Positions 2,165 to 10,668 of a DNA stretch of 25,413 nucleotides are shown piece after piece. The DNA is from a virus. The stretch covers positions 1 to 25,413 of IMG/VR virus record IMGVR_UViG_3300017963_000713. The stretch is one strand, 5' to 3'. Each line of letters opens with the position of its first letter. Position 1 is the stretch's first letter. The position numbers were made by a program, and so were the translations under genes. A model generated the notes under the pieces. That model was not told where the DNA came from, did no database searches, and saw only the letters and a list, made by a program, of their open reading frames with translations.

Positions 2165-2577
2165 AAGTATTAAAAGCAGTTGATTATCCTATGATCCCAG
2201 GCCAGGAACGCTGGTTCTATGTAGATCCCAATAATTCCTATTGTGAGTTTTCTGTTCCTCAGAATGCAGCGGCTGTTTGTGTTCAGCCACTGCTACAGAA
2301 GTTTGAAGTGAACAAAGCCTATCAGATCAGCGATTATGACAGGGAGAATGGTTGGGTAAGTGTATGGGCCGGATCGGAGACCGGGGATGATGTCTATAGG
2401 ATGCCTTTATATGTTTTTGCCAGGTATTTCGATGCCGAAGCCTTTGTTAGGAGGGCAGACCCGTCGACGGAGATAAAGTATCCAGGTTTTCGTACTTTGT
2501 CTGAAGAAGAAGTAAATAGTGCTTTATTTGAGGGGGACGATAGTATTGCCGATTGGGTAATACTGTCACCACAGTAA
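2158..2577 (+). CDS. Hypothetical protein
   Basis: Encodes 139 residues. AAGGAGGAA at 2148-2156 precedes the ATG at 2158, and the gene overlaps its neighbour by 7 bases, so the start is secure. It is acidic, soluble, rich in aromatic residues (RWFYVDPNNSYCEF; YRMPLYVFARYF) and probably a compact mixed alpha/beta protein. The ending ADWVILSPQ runs into the start of the next gene through a TAATG overlap. I do not recognise it; its place before the small-terminase-like gene says only that it belongs to the same transcript. Confidence 0.6.
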   Translation: MLKVLKAVDYPMIPGQERWFYVDPNNSYCEFSVPQNAAAVCVQPLLQKFEVNKAYQISDYDRENGWVSVWAGSETGDDVYRMPLYVFARYFDAEAFVRRADPSTEIKYPGFRTLSEEEVNSALFEGDDSIADWVILSPQ

Positions 2578-3362
2578 TGGGCGGCAAGGGCTCAGGGGGA
2601 ATCGATGCTGCTTTGGTGACTTTGGGCGGCAAGAAGATAGATAAAGACGGTAACGAATCAAAGTCTGGGTTCTTTGAGTTTCTAAATCTGCCTTTTGGCG
2701 ATTATTCTGATATTACTCTTACTCCGGAAGAAGCCGTAAAGCTTAGAAACTATGCAGTTAGACTGAAGTACGGTACTTCGGCTGCATTGCCTTTGACCTG
2801 TGTGGGAAAGAACTGTCCTTATAAAGACTGTATCTTTCACGAAGAGGGAAACTGGCCGGTCGGCAGACCGTGTCCCCTAGAATCAAAAATGATACAGGCT
2901 AAGATGAAGAGCTATGTAGAGGATCTCGATGTAGATCCCGAGAGTGTAACTGAAATGTGCCTGGTCAATGAATTGGTAGAATTAGAGATCATAGACATGC
3001 GGGCCAATGCCGGTCTAAGTGCTGATGGGGATGCTCAGGATCTATTACAAAGAATAGAAAAGACGAACGGCGAGTTTGCCAGTTTCGAATTAGCAGTTCA
3101 CCCTTTGTTAGACGTAAAGGCCAGAAACCGTAAAGAAAGATTACAGATCTTAGAATCTTTAGCTGCTACTCGCCGTGAGAAGTACAAGAAAGCTGCTGCC
3201 CTCCGTCAAGGAGAGACCCAAGATGCAGCTCGCTTCTATAGCAAGCTTAAAGAACTACAGGGTAAGATTTCCAAGCATGGACTCAGTGACCTCAGCAAGA
3301 TCATCAAGGAAGCCGAGGGAGTCGATGAATCTCAAGAAACAGACTGGGAATCTATTGAGTAA
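2577..3362 (+). CDS. Four-cysteine protein, candidate small terminase
   Basis: Encodes 261 residues from the ATG at 2577, which overlaps the upstream stop as TAATG. A TTG at 2553 in the same frame is an alternative. The N-terminus MGGKGSGGIDAA is a Gly/Lys-rich arm like those of many phage DNA-packaging proteins. Residues 75-102 carry C75-x4-C80-x4-C85-x13-C99 with Pro-rich surroundings (NCPYKDC, PVGRPCPLE), a likely Zn or Fe-S site. The rest is helical: an acidic stretch, then RNRKERLQILESLAATRREK and a basic, coiled-coil-like C-terminus. I infer a DNA-recognition subunit because of the arm, the helical core and its position upstream of the large terminase, but 4 kb separate the two and no clear helix-turn-helix was seen. 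It could also be a separate metal-binding regulator. Confidence 0.45.
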   Translation: MGGKGSGGIDAALVTLGGKKIDKDGNESKSGFFEFLNLPFGDYSDITLTPEEAVKLRNYAVRLKYGTSAALPLTCVGKNCPYKDCIFHEEGNWPVGRPCPLESKMIQAKMKSYVEDLDVDPESVTEMCLVNELVELEIIDMRANAGLSADGDAQDLLQRIEKTNGEFASFELAVHPLLDVKARNRKERLQILESLAATRREKYKKAAALRQGETQDAARFYSKLKELQGKISKHGLSDLSKIIKEAEGVDESQETDWESIE

Positions 3363-3416
3363 ATGGCTGGCCGTCCTTTGTTCTCTGCAGAGGAATGTTT
3401 AGAGCATAACCTATGA
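3363..3416 (+). CDS. 17-residue ORF between two genes (possible coupling leader)
   Basis: An ATG at 3363 directly follows the TAA of the upstream gene and opens 17 codons (MAGRPLFSAEECLEHNL) that stop at TGA 3414-3416, overlapping the next ATG as ATGA. It exactly fills the space between the two genes. The next gene has no good ribosome site of its own, so translation through this ORF could deliver ribosomes to it. It may also be chance; no ribosome site precedes it. Confidence 0.3.
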   Translation: MAGRPLFSAEECLEHNL

Positions 3417-6139
3417 GTAATTTTTTAGTTGATGAACTCCTTAAATTTGGTGTTATTAAGGAGAGGCCACAGAGGCCACAGAGGCCAGCTATAGGTCTAG
3501 CCTTGTCTTCTGGCGTGGAGGCGGAATTTGACCGTATTCGGGCAGAGCTTGCTGACATGCTACGCATTAATAAAGAGGCAAAGCTAAAAGTAGCGGGACT
3601 AGCAAGACAGGCTGGACTCCCAGAGGTAGCTGCTGCAGCTGATTTTTGGAGTCCTGTTGAAAAACCAAGAACCTCAACTGCGCTACCCCCGCTTCAACAG
3701 ACGACTATTTCACCTGCAAGACAGAAGCAGCTATATGCCCGTCGGGTGTATATAACAGAGCTATTCGAGCGACAGCGGGCTCGTCGCCGGGCGTTAGATC
3801 TAAGTTTGCCATCAGCCCAGAAACCTGCTATCAAGATTGTCCCAAAGCAGACTCTTTTAACAAAAGCTGAGCCAGAAGTTGCTAAAGTAGGTAGGCAGTT
3901 GACGAAAAAGGGATTTGGCTTAAGGCATTTGGCCACAGCTGGCCGAGTAGCCTTTAGTACAATAGGCATTGCTGCTATATTGCCTGGCTCCGGTGTGGAG
4001 AACCTGGTCTCTGGTGCTGCATTTGAAGCTGGATATAGATGGTTCGGCCGTGGACTTCCTATGCCTCGTAAGATTTTATATGGGGTGGCAGGTACGGCCG
4101 CAGCTAGATTGGGGATGTGGACTGTTGGTGCTATCTCCGGCAAGGACGATGCCTATAACACTATAGAAGGCTTGCATCCGGGTTCTGAGGGGTTCGGCGC
4201 TCAAAGTATAAGAGCACACAGTGACTTTGGTTCTGGCTATCGAGGCCCTAATCCTTGGCTGCAAGCAGAGTGGCACAAGCGCGAAGAGGTACCCAAGTAC
4301 ACTCGTATAGCTCCTAGTAAGCTTGGTGCCAGCGAGCGTGAAATATACAAATACCTAACAGAAGATTCTTATGAATCAGAGTACCTAGCAGCTGCTGCTA
4401 TGGCTGGTGTGGCCGGGCATAAGTACTTTGAAGCAGCTCAGTATGCTTCCGGAAAAGCAGAAGAAGTAGAGAGGCTGGTATACGATCCTGAAGCCCAAAT
4501 GGCTGGATTTATAGATGTTGTCTATCCGGGCGGCGCACCTGGAGACATCAAGACTGTTACGGCCAAAAGACTGGAAGAAGTACGCGAAAAGGGTGCCTAC
4601 CAGAAGCATATCTCTCAGTTAAACTTCTATATGCGTGCTCTCGACCAGCCTCGTGGCTATTTGGAGTATATAAGTCGTGAAGATCCCACCGAAAGGGAAT
4701 TGGTAGAGGTTCCTTATGAAGAAGAGAGATATGAGAAGGACATCGCCAAGATAGGGCGTGTCAGGAGCCGAATACTACAGGAACTGGCTAGCGGCAAGTT
4801 AAGTCCTGAAGATATACAATATGGTCCTTCTGTCCAGACTATGATAGCGGAATCGGCTAGGGAACAGGCTATGTTTCCGGCGGATGCCAGCAACCTGCCT
4901 CGTCTGTGGCAGACATACCAGGAAGAACTGGCTTATCTTAAAGGATTGAAGTTTCCTGGTATGCCCGATAGAGGTTTTGCTCCTGGTACTAGAGAGAGTC
5001 TTACAGAATTTAAAGCAAAATTTGCTTCTCGCTGGGATCCGGTAAGGAGAATAGCAGTAGAAGTATTCAAGGGGATGGAGAAGGAGCAGGCGTTTAAGAA
5101 ACTAGTGTCTTCTGAAGGGTTCAGGTCGGCCCTTGCGCGGGGAATGAAGAGGGGCGGCAAGTATTTGGGCGGAGGAGAAATGTCGCAGGTGCGTGGTTAT
5201 GCGGCTACGTATATGGCTCCGATAGAGCGTGGAGGGAAAACGTATAAATTCGAGTTCGCGGCAAAGACCGATATTCCGGGTAGGTTAAAGCCAAAGCTTC
5301 AGAAGGAAGTATATAAAGCAGAAAAGGTGGCACTAGAGCAACTTGGCCACTTACGAGCACCATCTTTGTATGGCACAGGCAAAGATCTTGGTTTAGAAGG
5401 TAATGTCATACTTATGGAGAAGTTTAAGAATTTCCAATCATTAGAAGGAATCGCCTTTAAGGAAGATGTGGAAGTTCTTAAGGGTTTTTTGTCGGAGGCT
5501 CACAAGAAGGGAATTGCGCATACGGACTTGTTTTCAGGAAACATTGGTACAGTATGGACCGAGGCAGGGGACATAGAGCTTGCGATTCTTGATTGGGGAA
5601 TGGCAAACAGATTTGTAAAATCTGCTGGTATAGGAGGACACCAACCTATAGTTCCAGAACTGCTTGAGTCGCTGAGTAAGGTTTCTCGTGAGAAGCTCGG
5701 CAGAGAAATAGGCCTTCATGAGTATTCCCAGATGGCGGATATAGCTCGGCTGGAAGGATATGCTACCCCTAACAACTGGTCGAAATATGGCATAAATGCG
5801 TTATACGAAACTGCTGTGGCCCCTACTCCTGAAGCATTAGAAAAAGTAGAAAGACTTATGGGGATGATAATTAGTTCTCCTCGGGCGGATGTCTTTGAGC
5901 CAGTGTTTACTAGTAAAGTAACGACTGCTGTTTCAAACAAGGCTCGTGCAAAATTCAGGGAGAAAAGCCAGGCTGCTGTGGGGGTTGGCTTAAGACAGGC
6001 TCATAACGGAGGAAGAAGACATGGGAAATTCGCATCTGCTACACCTTTTGAACTGGCAGATACCGTAGTCGCTGATTTTAACTCTGCTACTCCTTTTGAG
6101 TTGGCGAATACCGTAGTTGCCGATTTTAAACGGATTTAG
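3413..6139 (+). CDS. PD-(D/E)XK nuclease - protein kinase-like fusion
   Basis: Encodes 908 residues. N-terminal 1-160 is basic and unknown. Residues about 165-240 are Gly/Ala-rich and hydrophobic, followed by a DAYNTIEGLHPGSEG / SDFGSGYRG segment (246-280). A RecB/Cas4-like nuclease core follows: G335-H336...E340, D368 in GFIDVVYP, D378-I-K380 in GDIKT, and Q402...Y406 in SQLNFY. Residues about 580-735 are kinase-like: Gly-rich turn GGGEMSQVRG (586-595), K618 in FAAKTD, catalytic loop HTDLFSGNI (703-711; D705, N710) and metal-binding D727 in LDWG. All residues needed for phosphotransfer are present; the loop resembles RIO/AarF/LPS-kinase-type enzymes more than classical eukaryotic kinases. 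The C-terminus has two 16-residue repeats. Substrates are unknown. It overlaps a 17-codon ORF and precedes glycine-zipper genes. Both domain calls rest on motifs only. Confidence 0.75.
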   Translation: MSNFLVDELLKFGVIKERPQRPQRPAIGLALSSGVEAEFDRIRAELADMLRINKEAKLKVAGLARQAGLPEVAAAADFWSPVEKPRTSTALPPLQQTTISPARQKQLYARRVYITELFERQRARRRALDLSLPSAQKPAIKIVPKQTLLTKAEPEVAKVGRQLTKKGFGLRHLATAGRVAFSTIGIAAILPGSGVENLVSGAAFEAGYRWFGRGLPMPRKILYGVAGTAAARLGMWTVGAISGKDDAYNTIEGLHPGSEGFGAQSIRAHSDFGSGYRGPNPWLQAEWHKREEVPKYTRIAPSKLGASEREIYKYLTEDSYESEYLAAAAMAGVAGHKYFEAAQYASGKAEEVERLVYDPEAQMAGFIDVVYPGGAPGDIKTVTAKRLEEVREKGAYQKHISQLNFYMRALDQPRGYLEYISREDPTERELVEVPYEEERYEKDIAKIGRVRSRILQELASGKLSPEDIQYGPSVQTMIAESAREQAMFPADASNLPRLWQTYQEELAYLKGLKFPGMPDRGFAPGTRESLTEFKAKFASRWDPVRRIAVEVFKGMEKEQAFKKLVSSEGFRSALARGMKRGGKYLGGGEMSQVRGYAATYMAPIERGGKTYKFEFAAKTDIPGRLKPKLQKEVYKAEKVALEQLGHLRAPSLYGTGKDLGLEGNVILMEKFKNFQSLEGIAFKEDVEVLKGFLSEAHKKGIAHTDLFSGNIGTVWTEAGDIELAILDWGMANRFVKSAGIGGHQPIVPELLESLSKVSREKLGREIGLHEYSQMADIARLEGYATPNNWSKYGINALYETAVAPTPEALEKVERLMGMIISSPRADVFEPVFTSKVTTAVSNKARAKFREKSQAAVGVGLRQAHNGGRRHGKFASATPFELADTVVADFNSATPFELANTVVADFKRI
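3462..3487. repeat. 9-bp tandem repeat encoding (RPQ)n
   Basis: AGAGGCCAC occurs twice in full (3462-3470, 3471-3479) and once partly (3480-3487), encoding the proline-rich RPQRPQRP near the N-terminus of the fusion protein. Likely a length-variable linker. Confidence 0.6.
6035..6130 (+). repeat. Two 48-bp tandem repeats at the end of the fusion gene
   Basis: Units 6035-6082 and 6083-6130 encode SATPFELADTVVADFN and SATPFELANTVVADFK, residues 875-906 of the nuclease-kinase protein. The DNA units differ at 8 of 48 bases, and six of the eight differences are silent, so the protein repeat appears conserved while the DNA has drifted. Possibly a docking or packaging tag. Confidence 0.85.
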
Positions 6140-6167: not shown

Positions 6168-6665
6168 ATGACTGTTTTTGCTGCGTTGGGTAGTGCGTTA
6201 GGTGGAGGGACCAGACGAGCGCTTATTGGTGCTGGTGTAGGCGGTGGTCTAGGCTGGCTCGGTGCAGATCGTAATCCAGGTAGTGCTTTTCTGGCTGGGG
6301 CCGCTGGTGGTGCTGCTGCTGGTGGGTTGGGCGTTCCGGCTGTGAGGGCACTTGCGGGGAACAGAAGTATTGCTGGGGCTGCTGGTTGGGCTCTGGGCAG
6401 TGCTCAAATGCGTGGTGCTGGCAGGGGTATTATTGGTGGACTTGGTTGGGCTACTCGTCAGGCAGGAGCTTGGGGTGGCCCGCTCGGTGCTGGTGCTCTT
6501 AGATATGGCGGGGCCGCAATGAGAGGGTTAGAGACTGGGGCGAAATGGATTGGGAACAATGCTACTCTTGTCAACAAATGGGGAGGAAGAGCCCTGACAG
6601 GATTGGGAATGGCTGCTGGTGCTCATATCGGTAGTTCTATGGTTTCTTCTAATCGCGGTTTCTAA
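6168..6665 (+). CDS. Gly/Ala-rich glycine-zipper protein
   Basis: Encodes 165 residues, dominated by Gly and Ala. Several segments follow the GxxxG/AxxxG glycine-zipper pattern (ALGSALGGGTRRALIGAGVG, FLAGAAGGAAAGGLGVPAV, AGRGIIGGLGWATRQAG), a design that packs helices within membranes. Basic residues are scattered between them and no signal peptide is evident. AGGAGG at 6154-6159 supports the ATG. Family unknown. Phage proteins of this composition are often internal virion or membrane-penetrating proteins that act during DNA entry; that role is inferred here from composition and from the next gene being similar. Confidence 0.65.
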   Translation: MTVFAALGSALGGGTRRALIGAGVGGGLGWLGADRNPGSAFLAGAAGGAAAGGLGVPAVRALAGNRSIAGAAGWALGSAQMRGAGRGIIGGLGWATRQAGAWGGPLGAGALRYGGAAMRGLETGAKWIGNNATLVNKWGGRALTGLGMAAGAHIGSSMVSSNRGF

Positions 6666-6670
6666 ACTAA

Positions 6671-7468
6671 ATGTCTGCTAAAAGAGATCTCTGGTTCGCC
6701 AGAACGATGAATCCTTCTCCTGGTACCTTTAGGGGTGCCATGGAATGGGGCGCTCATCAGTTCGGCAGAGAGCTATTTGCAGCCAATTTTACTCAGGGCG
6801 GATTTTCTTCCATAGCTTTTGCCTCTAGTCGAAAAGAAGCCCTTCGTAACATGCTTCGACCAAAAGTTAGGTTTGGAGGAAAAGAGCATATCCGGCGTCT
6901 AGAGTCCCTCTATGAAGCTTCTGGGAAAGACCCTATGGTGCTTAGGGGGCTAAAGAAGGCCCAGAAGGCTAAGGTATCGAAATTAGGTAAGTTTGGTGGG
7001 TTTGCAAAGATAGGAGGGCCGCTTGCTGGCGCGGCAATCTTTGCCGTTCCGGCAATGATGGAAGAAGGATCTGGAGTAGAGAAGACAGAGAGGGGACTAG
7101 CTGCAATTGTCTCTGGAACCGTAGGGTGGCATGCCGGGGCTTCTGCTGGTGCTGTTGCCGGAGCCGCTCTTGGAGGAACGATTCTTCCTGGTATTGGTCA
7201 TGCTCTTGGAGCTGTGGTAGGATATCTTGGTGGCGGTATGTTGGGTTTTGAAGCGACTGATGCCGGCGCACGGGAAGCATTTAGTGTTCCTCGTAGACTA
7301 GTAGAGAGAGAAAGAAAGCGAAGAAAGATGGATTGGGGTACGCCAAACCCAGCCTTTTATACTCGTCAGGCCGCGACTATGCGCCAGGTCTCTCTCCAAG
7401 CAATGAATCGGGGTATGATGACTTCCCGTTCAGCCTTGGGCCAGGAGGGACTATGGCTGCACCAGTAG
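6671..7468 (+). CDS. Glycine-zipper virion-like protein
   Basis: Encodes 265 residues. The N-terminal 100 are basic with no obvious membrane segment. Residues about 112-130 (KIGGPLAGAAIFAVPAMM) and 145-192 are hydrophobic and Gly/Ala-rich (GAVAGAALGGTILPGIGHAL then GAVVGYLGGGMLGF), forming two or three glycine-zipper helices. After a very basic stretch (RRLVERERKRRK) the C-terminus has a Met/Arg/Gln-rich segment (RQAATMRQVSLQAMNRGMM). It begins five bases after the previous stop and lacks a strong ribosome site, so coupling is likely. It overlaps the terminase start by 16 bases. I infer a membrane-active or internal virion protein. Confidence 0.65.
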   Translation: MSAKRDLWFARTMNPSPGTFRGAMEWGAHQFGRELFAANFTQGGFSSIAFASSRKEALRNMLRPKVRFGGKEHIRRLESLYEASGKDPMVLRGLKKAQKAKVSKLGKFGGFAKIGGPLAGAAIFAVPAMMEEGSGVEKTERGLAAIVSGTVGWHAGASAGAVAGAALGGTILPGIGHALGAVVGYLGGGMLGFEATDAGAREAFSVPRRLVERERKRRKMDWGTPNPAFYTRQAATMRQVSLQAMNRGMMTSRSALGQEGLWLHQ

Positions 7469-10400
7469 ATCCTCTTGCAGATCTACGGAAGCTCGATCTT
7501 CCATTTGATATTGACAACGTAAGAGAACAATGTCACAAATGCGTTCGTAGACAACTAAAGAAATACGAAAACTTTGTAGAAGGAGATGTTTCCTGCAAGG
7601 GCAAGTTCACAGTTCCATGCAAGGGCGTCCCGAAAGAACCCGATCTCGCCTTAAAGAGAATTCTGGGAGATCAATGGGAGGATTATCTGTCTGTGGCCGA
7701 TCCTGTCGTATGGGCCGCGAAAAATATAAAGCACTCTACCGGTCCTTTAATGGGCAAACCATGGGTAGCAAGATGGTATCAAGAAGAAGTCCTTAGGTGC
7801 ACCTCTATTAGAAGAATGCTGAGGATAGCCCGGCGTTCGGGCAAAACAGACATGATAGCGATTTATATCCTTTATAGGTTATTTACCCAGGAGGGTATTA
7901 AAGCTGTCATTGCTGCGCCCAACAAGTCGCACGTTGAAGAGATTATGCAACGTGTTAGTGATTTCGCCAAAAGCAATCCTGATCTTCGTAGTTGTATACT
8001 AAGAGAGAGATCTGCTCCTTACTATGAGTTTACGATCTCCAATAAGTCCAGACTTCGTGGTTTTGCTGTTGGGGCCCAGGGGGGGAGCGAAGGTGTTGGT
8101 ATTCGGGGCCAGGACGCAGACGAAATTCTTTGTTTGCCGAGGGGAACCTTAGTAAGCACGTCAAAATTTGCCGTCAAGCCAATTGAAAGACTTACGCTAC
8201 AAGATACAGTGCTTGGGGGCGATCAATATGGAGTCAGAGTTGGGGAGATACAACAGCTAGGTGTAAGAAGAGCTACTGTTATGACGATCCCAACGGCACT
8301 AGGAGTGGTCAAGTGTACGCCCGAGCACCCTCTCTTTGACGGAGAGAAGGACGTTGAGGCCAGATGTGCCGATCACGTAATTACTTCTCTCTATTACCAA
8401 AAGCTAACTTTCTCTCCCAGGGTAATAATAGCTAGGTTACTAGGGTATGTTTATGGAGATGGGTGGGTTTCGGAAGATAAGGTAGGTTTCTCCGGACAAG
8501 AGGCGGATTTAGAACAAATACAAGCCGATCTTTCTCTCCTTGGGGACAAAAAACATATCATAAATACAAGAGTTTGCGAAAACGAGCGACGAGGAACCAA
8601 AGGAGAAGGCTCTCAGTTTGGTTCTGGTTATGCATACCATTTTATTAAAGGTCTTTGTCCGACAGGCAGGAAGGTTTTTCAGCCTCTTAGGGTACCCGAT
8701 AGGATCATGAATGGTATTCCTTATGTAAAAATGGCTTTTCTTTCTGGGTTATTCAGTGCAGAAGGAACCGGTATCAAGTACCAGACTAATAAAAAAACTC
8801 CTAGGACAGTTGATTTTGCCATGAGGAGTACCAAGGAGCAGTGGATCCGAGACTGGATAGGAGATTTGTGTCTCTTGTTAGATTCCTTGAAAATAAAGTA
8901 TTCTACTAGCTTTGAGTATTTCAAGGACGAAGACATTGTAGATCCAGAAGACGATGGAGATAGATATATTGGGCAGATTAATATAGCCAATTCGCAGAGA
9001 AACCTTCAGAAGTTTATAGACAAGATTGGATATTGTTACAACGCAGAGAAGACTGCTACTGCTAATGCCTATAGGCTGTTTAGGCACTATAAAAGAATTT
9101 GGAAAGCGGATCGATGGAAAAAGAATCGCATGGTGCGGATGCAGTCTGGGACTGCCAGTAAAGTAGCCGAAAAGCTACAGATTCCGAAGTCTACCGTTAA
9201 GTATCACAGGAATTTGTACGACGAGCTATATTCCGAGCCTTTGCTTTTGCCACATGAATATCTTGCGAAGATAACATGGCGTCCTGGCTATGTGCGGTTG
9301 CCTATTAGAAAAGAAAACATAAGGTATGATCCCGAAATAGTTGATGTCTACAACCTCACTTCTGGTGCGGACAACAGGTTCTTTGCTGGTGGGATGTTAA
9401 CTCATAACTGTGAGGAAATGGACTATATCGACACAAAGGCGCTTATGCAGGCAGTGTTGCCTATTTTACAAACTAGGCCTACCACTGCGTTTACGGGGTT
9501 TTCCACTCCTTCTGGTTTAAAGACTACCTTTTATACTCTTTGTGAGGAAAGTCCTGATTATATTGAGTTTCATCATAGTTATAAGGTACTTCCTCCTGAG
9601 CACCGAGCCTCTATAGAACGAGATAAACCCAAGTACACGGAAGATGAGTTCGGACACGAGTTTTTGGCGGAGTGGGGAAATCCAGAAGAAGGCGTCTATA
9701 AGGCAAGTTATATTGACAGAGCTTTACGAAACTACACCTATGAGGATCAAGTTTATAATATTCGGTGGCAGTATGTTATGGGAACAGACTGGAACGAACA
9801 ACACGGCACAGAAATTGTTGTGTTAGGACGTAATCCGGCAAATGGTCAATACCAGCCTGTAGATGCGATCTGTATTGAGAAGTCTGAGTTTACCCAGCTT
9901 GCTGGAATTGATGCTGTGATAAAGATGAACCAGAAGTGGAAACCTTCCTTTATATACATAGATGCAGGTGGTGGTGGAAGCTCAAACTGGGAGGTTCTTA
10001 TAAAGACTAGTAAGGGACACAGAGTTCCTGGTGGAGATCCTGATACTGCTCGAATAGTAGATATACTGAAGAAATACGATGCCGGAGCATCTATAGAGAC
10101 TAAACATCTTATTACCGGAGAGCCTGTTCGACGTCCCGCCAAACAGTTTATGGTAAATGCTTCTGTAAGGATGTTCGAACAAGGAATGATGCGCATCTCG
10201 GCGGCGGACAAGACCTTAGAGAAACAGTTGAGAAACTATATAATTAAAAGAATTTCTCCTCAGGGCGTGCCGGTGTACGATGCCAAAGACCCTAAGGTTA
10301 AAGACCATAGGTTAGATGCTTTTAATATGGCTTGTGCTGCTTTTGTATTAGAGTTCGGAGACTTGCATAAAGTCGATATAATTACTAGTGCTATTGCGGC

Positions 10401-10668
10401 TCCTAGTCCTCTATCTAAACAGTTGTCTTTTCGAGCTTCTAGGGGAGATCAGGAACATGGTCCTGAGGACCGGAGGATTGATAAACCGGAATCTCTTTTG
10501 GGAAGAGCTGTTCTTCCTGGTAGAATAGATATTGAGAAGAGACAAGTCTATCGACATGGGTTTAGTACTGACGAAGAGGATAAATATCGTCAAATGTATG
10601 CTAGAAGACGTCGAAATAGGCTTATCCGTCAGCAAAGATACGAAAGGCCCCAGCGGAGCAATTTCTAG
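7453..10668 (+). CDS. Terminase large subunit, intein-containing precursor
   Basis: The precursor has 1071 residues; removal of the intein (227-652) leaves 645, a normal size for a large terminase. It is the motor that cuts concatemeric phage DNA and pumps it through the portal. Walker A is ARRSGKT at 126-132. Walker B is split: exteins join as ...ADEIL-CEEMDYID, with the acidic pair E654-E655. Motif III is FTGFSTPSG. The C-terminal RNase H-like nuclease shows D779 (GTDWN), D837 (YIDAGGGG) and D955 (DHRLDAFN), its usual metal-binding acids. The N-terminus adds four cysteines (C27, C30, C48, C56), possibly a zinc site. AGGAGGG at 7443-7449 places the start at ATG 7453; the frame is open back to 7333 but only inside the upstream gene. 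First acidic Walker B residue is Glu instead of the usual Asp. Confidence 0.93.
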   Translation: MAAPVDPLADLRKLDLPFDIDNVREQCHKCVRRQLKKYENFVEGDVSCKGKFTVPCKGVPKEPDLALKRILGDQWEDYLSVADPVVWAAKNIKHSTGPLMGKPWVARWYQEEVLRCTSIRRMLRIARRSGKTDMIAIYILYRLFTQEGIKAVIAAPNKSHVEEIMQRVSDFAKSNPDLRSCILRERSAPYYEFTISNKSRLRGFAVGAQGGSEGVGIRGQDADEILCLPRGTLVSTSKFAVKPIERLTLQDTVLGGDQYGVRVGEIQQLGVRRATVMTIPTALGVVKCTPEHPLFDGEKDVEARCADHVITSLYYQKLTFSPRVIIARLLGYVYGDGWVSEDKVGFSGQEADLEQIQADLSLLGDKKHIINTRVCENERRGTKGEGSQFGSGYAYHFIKGLCPTGRKVFQPLRVPDRIMNGIPYVKMAFLSGLFSAEGTGIKYQTNKKTPRTVDFAMRSTKEQWIRDWIGDLCLLLDSLKIKYSTSFEYFKDEDIVDPEDDGDRYIGQINIANSQRNLQKFIDKIGYCYNAEKTATANAYRLFRHYKRIWKADRWKKNRMVRMQSGTASKVAEKLQIPKSTVKYHRNLYDELYSEPLLLPHEYLAKITWRPGYVRLPIRKENIRYDPEIVDVYNLTSGADNRFFAGGMLTHNCEEMDYIDTKALMQAVLPILQTRPTTAFTGFSTPSGLKTTFYTLCEESPDYIEFHHSYKVLPPEHRASIERDKPKYTEDEFGHEFLAEWGNPEEGVYKASYIDRALRNYTYEDQVYNIRWQYVMGTDWNEQHGTEIVVLGRNPANGQYQPVDAICIEKSEFTQLAGIDAVIKMNQKWKPSFIYIDAGGGGSSNWEVLIKTSKGHRVPGGDPDTARIVDILKKYDAGASIETKHLITGEPVRRPAKQFMVNASVRMFEQGMMRISAADKTLEKQLRNYIIKRISPQGVPVYDAKDPKVKDHRLDAFNMACAAFVLEFGDLHKVDIITSAIAAPSPLSKQLSFRASRGDQEHGPEDRRIDKPESLLGRAVLPGRIDIEKRQVYRHGFSTDEEDKYRQMYARRRRNRLIRQQRYERPQRSNF
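8131..9408 (+). mobile_element. Intein with LAGLIDADG homing endonuclease, in terminase Walker B
   Basis: A 426-residue protein intron. It begins with Cys in CLPRGTLVST (block A), has TPEH at intein residues 63-66 (block B), ends with FFAGGMLTHN (blocks F and G) and is followed by Cys as the first downstream extein residue, so all splicing residues (Cys1, block B Thr/His, His-Asn, +1 Cys) are present. Two LAGLIDADG motifs, LLGYVYGDGW (acid D110) and FLSGLFSAEG (acid E211), make a monomeric homing endonuclease that appears intact. A helix-turn-helix-like segment, KVAEKLQIPKSTVKYH (about 344-359), follows the endonuclease and may add DNA contacts. The insertion point lies one residue ahead of the Walker B acidic pair, a highly conserved site that favours homing and penalises loss. 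Confidence 0.93.

Follow-up and report, generated by a model that had tools for sequence, protein, structure and literature searches.

A viral contig of 25.4 kb (IMG/VR record IMGVR_UViG_3300017963_000713, positions 1 to 25,413; this whole stretch of 25,413 nucleotides is here called the window), carrying genes for TerL, portal, major head protein and tail sheath, was found to encode a predicted nuclease and a predicted protein kinase in one chain, and the pair represents one of the states of a modular, fast-changing protein. The earlier note on this DNA, made from the letters alone, had described both catalytic cores and the single uninterrupted chain of 908 residues, which is indeed one open reading frame with an ATG start, and had overlooked the leader motif at residues 241-278. 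The features of the locus are as follows.

2553..3362, plus strand: orf269, upstream neighbour and locus marker (four invariant cysteines in an alignment; synteny)
3413..6139, plus strand: modular nuclease-kinase protein, 908 aa
3920..4132, plus strand: hydrophobic, glycine-rich segment before the first leader (about residues 170-240; 33% identity to relative L007)
4133..4246, plus strand: leader motif (residues 241-278, ISGKDDAYNTIEGLHPGSEGFGAQSIRAHSDFGSGYRG; motif HMM 56.7 bits)
4247..4846, plus strand: PD-(D/E)XK nuclease module (residues 279-478; H336, E353, D368, D378, K380, Q402, Y406)
4949..5041, plus strand: degenerate second leader (residues 513-543, KFPGMPDRGFAPGTRESLTEFKAKFASRWDP; motif HMM 5.3 bits)
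5045..5872, plus strand: protein-kinase module (core residues 545-743, helical extension to about 820; G588, K618, E637, D705, N710, D727)
5945..6037, plus strand: conserved basic C-terminal tail (residues 845-875, RAKFREKSQAAVGVGLRQAHNGGRRHGKFAS; split-half HMM test)
6168..6665, plus strand: gz1, glycine-rich protein, downstream neighbour (order conserved in L001, L006, L007 and L083)
6671..7468, plus strand: gz2, glycine-zipper protein, downstream neighbour (weak homologues ME3 gp012 and KLEB27-3 gp009)
7333..10668, plus strand: TerL with a LAGLIDADG intein (profile matches)

The nuclease and kinase modules

Profiles, invariant catalytic residues and predicted folds speak for both enzymatic identities proposed earlier, and none of the outcomes named as refuting them, a missing profile match or a model lacking the ATP pocket or the PD-(D/E)XK fold, occurred. 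In the nuclease, residues 295-451 matched PHROG 1706 in a profile search (E=1.1e-10), with weaker PHROG matches of the RecE/Cas4/exonuclease kind and a PADLOC match to Cas4 at 0.003, and the residues listed above were all invariant in an 8-member alignment, so that the core as first drawn stood with the exception of E340, which is E or Q in most members. The AlphaFold2 model of the module (pLDDT 85, pTM 0.80) had a PD-(D/E)XK fold, and its best Foldseek matches were lambda exonuclease (1.6e-6), LHK-Exo, RecE and Cas4 SSO0001; the sequence profile against the PDB was by itself weak (Cas4 SSO0001, 0.017). By sequence and model, the module is thus a PD-(D/E)XK nuclease of the lambda-exonuclease/Cas4 type, with predicted activity. 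It has the fold and the H...E...GhiD...DIKT...QxxxY signature of lambda exonuclease, Cas4 and RecB-type nucleases; unlike them it belongs to a larger chain, away from any free-standing Red or CRISPR context, and unlike Cas4 it lacks the cysteines that would hold a Cas4-type Fe-S cluster. In relative L037 the catalytic residues of the nuclease have been lost.

Searches with the kinase as a single sequence were weak (ABC1 at E=0.1; PDB at 0.1), and an 18-member profile found protein kinases in the PDB at 5.8e-14. G588, K618, E637, D705, N710, D727 and G729 were invariant in the alignment, K618, D705, N710 and D727 being the residues that had been picked out at first reading. The model of this module (pLDDT 80, pTM 0.78) had 423 PDB matches at E<=0.001, and among the matches listed the best were all kinases. 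These results point to a protein-kinase fold with intact catalytic residues, for which phosphotransfer is predicted. The module has the Gly loop, Lys, Glu, HxD..N and DFG/DWG of bacterial protein kinases (ABC1/RIO/Pkinase and the defence kinase PD-T4-6). It differs from them in the C-lobe, which is short or missing in most relatives, where the profile stops about 20 residues past DFG; the kinase of the window has extra helices and retains about 90 helical residues after DWG. Membership in the kinase clade of the polyvalent proteins, which Iyer et al. (PMC5512222) characterise by an insert between the catalytic His and Asp and by loss of the C-terminal subdomain, was considered and rejected, for that insert is absent: the window has HTD and the aligned members HxD or an equivalent.

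Leaders, hydrophobic segment and tail

The leader has a consensus of about 36 residues, (F/I)SGKDDxYNTIEGL...TDFGSG(W/Y), and occurs in 1-6 copies per relative, in proteins of up to 2419 aa. The string DDxxNTIEGL...DFGSG was found in both the window and L007, and a DNA pattern for DDxxNTIEG occurred in 85 viral stretches, about half of which had the whole signature of about 36 residues. Across 28 viral records of 17-199 kb, all leader copies lay within one ORF per record. Positions D5, D6, N9-L14 and F30-G33 were invariant in a 14-row sample, and wider sampling brought exceptions (NTIRG, NSIEG, NTIMG). A kinase module starts 1-6 residues behind a leader in 19 of 22 cases, that of the window standing behind the degenerate second leader, and strings like this second leader also precede the kinases of L001 and L233. 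Nuclease copies lie directly behind a leader in 5 of 9 cases, SNase and DEDD exonuclease domains sit between or ahead of leaders, and many inter-leader stretches have no known domain. Homology blocks end at leaders in 49% of cases against 19% expected, an excess that is in part to be expected since the leader itself aligns; in L214 and L215, for example, a block with its ends at leaders is 79% identical. A sister clade (L255 and L256) has a different repeated leader, KGHDxxxWGR...DFxPGSS, in four and three copies, respectively; as both types end alike (DFGSG or DFxPGS), comparison of the motifs suggests that they diverged from one signature. The 1056-aa protein of L255 (3324-6491), which bears the four alternative leaders, has segments that by eye resemble ADP-ribosyltransferase and GNAT domains, with no Pfam match.

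Neither the leader consensus nor the window protein had a tblastn match in 50,697 phage records, and searches of the literature with leader strings found no relevant paper. The leader pattern had at least 119 matches in cellular genome contigs, and among the matches listed none had the full leader; its absence from cells is only suggested.

A hydrophobic helix precedes the first leader in 20 of 33 proteins, compared with 5 of 40 later leaders and 2% of random stretches, a count made over the 35 residues upstream and pooled, so that it does not single out the first leader of the window. Across 90 residues upstream of leaders hydrophobicity gave no signal, and hhalign found no relation between the N-terminal segment and gz1 or gz2. 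At the other end, most relatives have a basic "GG+xH" tail: the C-terminal 45 residues have a mean net charge of +6.5 versus +0.9, and split-half tail HMMs recovered 9-15 of 17 held-out family tails and, of 985 controls, matched only L001, itself a family member, and so no true control. The C-terminal tail of gz2 is also strongly conserved (MRQQSLQAMNRGQMSxRSxLGxExxxxH), in a layout like that of the modular protein's tail, a likeness that was not significant in a profile test. At the end of the window protein (6035-6130), 16 residues are imperfectly repeated in tandem (SATPFELADTVVADFN / SATPFELANTVVADFK); the repeat extends beyond the conserved tail and is absent from the listed relatives.

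The locus and the repertoire of its relatives

The modular gene does lie between orf269 and the glycine-zipper genes, as first described; the accompanying reading of 2553-3362 as a small-terminase candidate found no support, orf269 having no Pfam or PHROG match. Its homologue in Acinetobacter phage ME3 (gp009), which bears the annotation of an RNA methyltransferase, has an intein. Downstream of the modular gene follows the conserved run of gz1, gz2 and TerL. The TerL intein lies at window positions 8130-9410, beside the conserved GQDAD...CEEMDY site (Pfam LAGLIDADG_3, 7.6e-6); inteins occupy the same site in L006 and L007, two are present in L008 and none in L001, and those of L287 and L302 are apparently at other TerL sites. 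An intein was also found within a family protein itself, at about residues 1288-1738 of the L075 ORF at 1801 on the minus strand (Pfam Intein_splicing, 8e-6, and LAGLIDADG_3). Upstream of the late genes, positions 29-424 encode an Hsp20-like small heat-shock protein (PHROG 432, 1.8e-14), and L007 has a similar gene at 2734-3126. Promoter and terminator scans gave no excess over chance, and Rfam and tRNA searches gave no match. The portal and TerL of the window are distantly related to those of Moorella phage MTATph1, Bacillus phage KLEB27-3 and ME3, the last annotated as having genes in common with Bacillus phage 0305phi8-36, and on this sequence kinship the window is placed in a broad group of large myophages.

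A scan with TerL, independent of the leader, gave a sample of 78 loci. Of these, 45 have orf269 upstream of TerL, and a leader protein is present at 39 of the 45, that of L299 lying just ahead of orf269; three of the six loci without a standard leader carry a known module. The modules of the relatives are kinase, PD-(D/E)XK, SNase and DEDD exonuclease. Among 30 complete proteins the kinase was present in 18, a nuclease in 19 and both in 11. A minimal version in L287 and L292 has a hydrophobic start, a PD-(D/E)XK nuclease and a GGRRH tail, and no leader; L007, at the same locus, resembles the window only in the N-terminal region, in one kinase and in the tail. The nuclease-kinase pair is not unique to the window: it recurs in L083/L260, L242 and L256 (the last with alternative leaders), and a nuclease and kinase of some kind are present in 14 of 46 TerL-selected genomes, the window included.

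Turnover

A quick TerL tree of 46 rows requires at least 23 changes of module state, with minimum changes of 8 for the kinase, 5 for PD-(D/E)XK, 13 for SNase and 7 for DEDD, counts that are inflated by missed domains, since modules were called by profile threshold. The contrast with the neighbouring genes is seen in the nearest relatives L007 and L260, in which TerL is 77-85% identical (85% in its C-terminal part), the major head protein 90% and other late genes 48-90%, whereas the modular proteins, of 457 and 944 aa, are 34% identical. Across some 30 pairs whose TerL identity exceeds 60%, the most diverged of the genes compared was nearly always the modular one, which is the fastest-changing gene of its neighbourhood. 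As judged from these sequence comparisons, the gene behaves, with such turnover, like one in an arms race and not like one for packaging.

Known systems

The leader-bearing modular protein was found in no paper or annotation searched. Among isolated phages, no homologue could be established in 50,697 phage records, and consequently there is no annotated structural counterpart; whole-protein queries with L035 and L057 against the same records found only a DnaJ-like piece (6 Aeromonas phage records) and a RecB-like piece (Thermus phage phiFa). The isolate ME3 has at the same locus gp011, which has a hydrophobic helix before a short tail and a probable DEDD exonuclease start (Pfam 0.03, below the cut-off). 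It has neither leader nor kinase and is at most a candidate homologue of the family.

Polymorphic toxins have a conserved pre-toxin motif ahead of exchangeable enzyme domains, and the modular protein is like them in that a conserved signature precedes swappable enzymes; it is unlike them in having several modules per chain, not only at the C-terminus, and in its location in a phage head locus. Such toxins are accompanied by a cognate immunity gene downstream; the genes downstream of the modular protein are the conserved gz1, gz2 and TerL. The nearest concept is that of the polyvalent proteins of phages and conjugative elements, which Iyer et al. 2017 (PMC5512222) describe as large multidomain proteins, predicted to be injected and encoded near late genes, that have unrelated enzymatic activities in one chain and in some cases reduced kinases. 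The modular protein likewise combines several unrelated enzymatic domains (nuclease and kinase in the window, SNase and DEDD in relatives), and its gene is linked to late and packaging genes. It differs in its repeated leader, GG+xH tail and fixed site beside TerL, none of which is mentioned in the accessible text of that article (PMC5512222).

Proposed function

On balance we think it probable, with considerable reservation, that the modular protein is an effector of the polyvalent kind, with several enzymes in one chain, expressed late and carried in the virion. It would be made late, together with the head proteins, and the tail and leaders would serve as sorting, docking or processing signals, so that different enzymes could share one route into the virion. 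The particle would carry the protein and release it with the genome into the host at infection, where the nuclease may act on the host's nucleic acid and the compact kinase on its proteins.

One alternative bears on the leader and is compatible with this effector: that the leader is a prohead-protease site, at which the chain is split into separate enzymes during head maturation. Leaders sit between modules, disorder was predicted at the start of both modelled modules, and NTIE|GL looks like the small-x-Glu sites of such proteases, SPN3US gp245 cutting after AXE (PMC10052503). Cleavage at NTIE|G on the model of gp245 is possible; as a general function of the leader, Glu-specific cleavage there is weakened, because the glutamate is lost in L242 (RIQG, PING and PIDG) and elsewhere (NTIRG, NTIMG and NFIQG), and the sister clade L255/L256 has its other motif instead. 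We consider a protease site doubtful overall.

It is also rather unlikely that the protein is a late cytoplasmic enzyme, absent from the virion, whose task would be to degrade the DNA of the host, modify its proteins or keep out competing phages. A nuclease with a kinase would fit host takeover, and the L260 kinase module matches the PD-T4-6 defence kinases (5e-7), yet the gene lies inside a run of head genes and the protein has a hydrophobic segment and a common basic tail, the latter kept even in the single-module L287 and L292. Segment and tail could act in membrane or DNA binding within the producing cell.

The roles first suggested for the protein were an ejected takeover enzyme, a packaging or DNA-end-processing factor and a host-defence counter-weapon. 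Of these, an effector is more in keeping than a packaging factor with modules that are exchanged and extremely diverged while the neighbours stay stable. The gene is always beside TerL and the nuclease has the fold of lambda exonuclease/Cas4, as might befit a packaging, end-processing or recombination factor working with the adjoining terminase and regulated by the kinase. Against such a factor, the nuclease swaps freely (PD-(D/E)XK, SNase, DEDD) or goes undetected while TerL is conserved, and kinases come and go; packaging would be expected to require one fixed chemistry, and we hold this role to be improbable. That an unusual pair on a metagenomic contig is a chimera or frame artefact fusing two genes deserves virtually no credence, since an independent contig, L242, repeats the nuclease-leader-kinase order, its block being 48% identical to that of the window over 506 aa, and both modules also occur in L260 and L256, making the pair a real and recurrent combination.

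Returning to the virion-carried effector, we would tentatively go further, while putting this at somewhat less than an even chance, and see in the locus an undescribed effector-cassette system, in which a hypervariable gene beside TerL, by means of its exchangeable leader and common C-terminal tail, would let the lineage fill its virions with varied nucleases, kinases and other enzymes, a shuffled arsenal. The results point to one gene, easy to recognise, as the fast-evolving arsenal of large phages in a wide and nearly uncultured lineage. Should virion delivery prove true, the leader and tail would be a candidate route signal, new nucleases and minimal kinases could be drawn from the family, and further effectors could be found by reading the sequence behind the leader.
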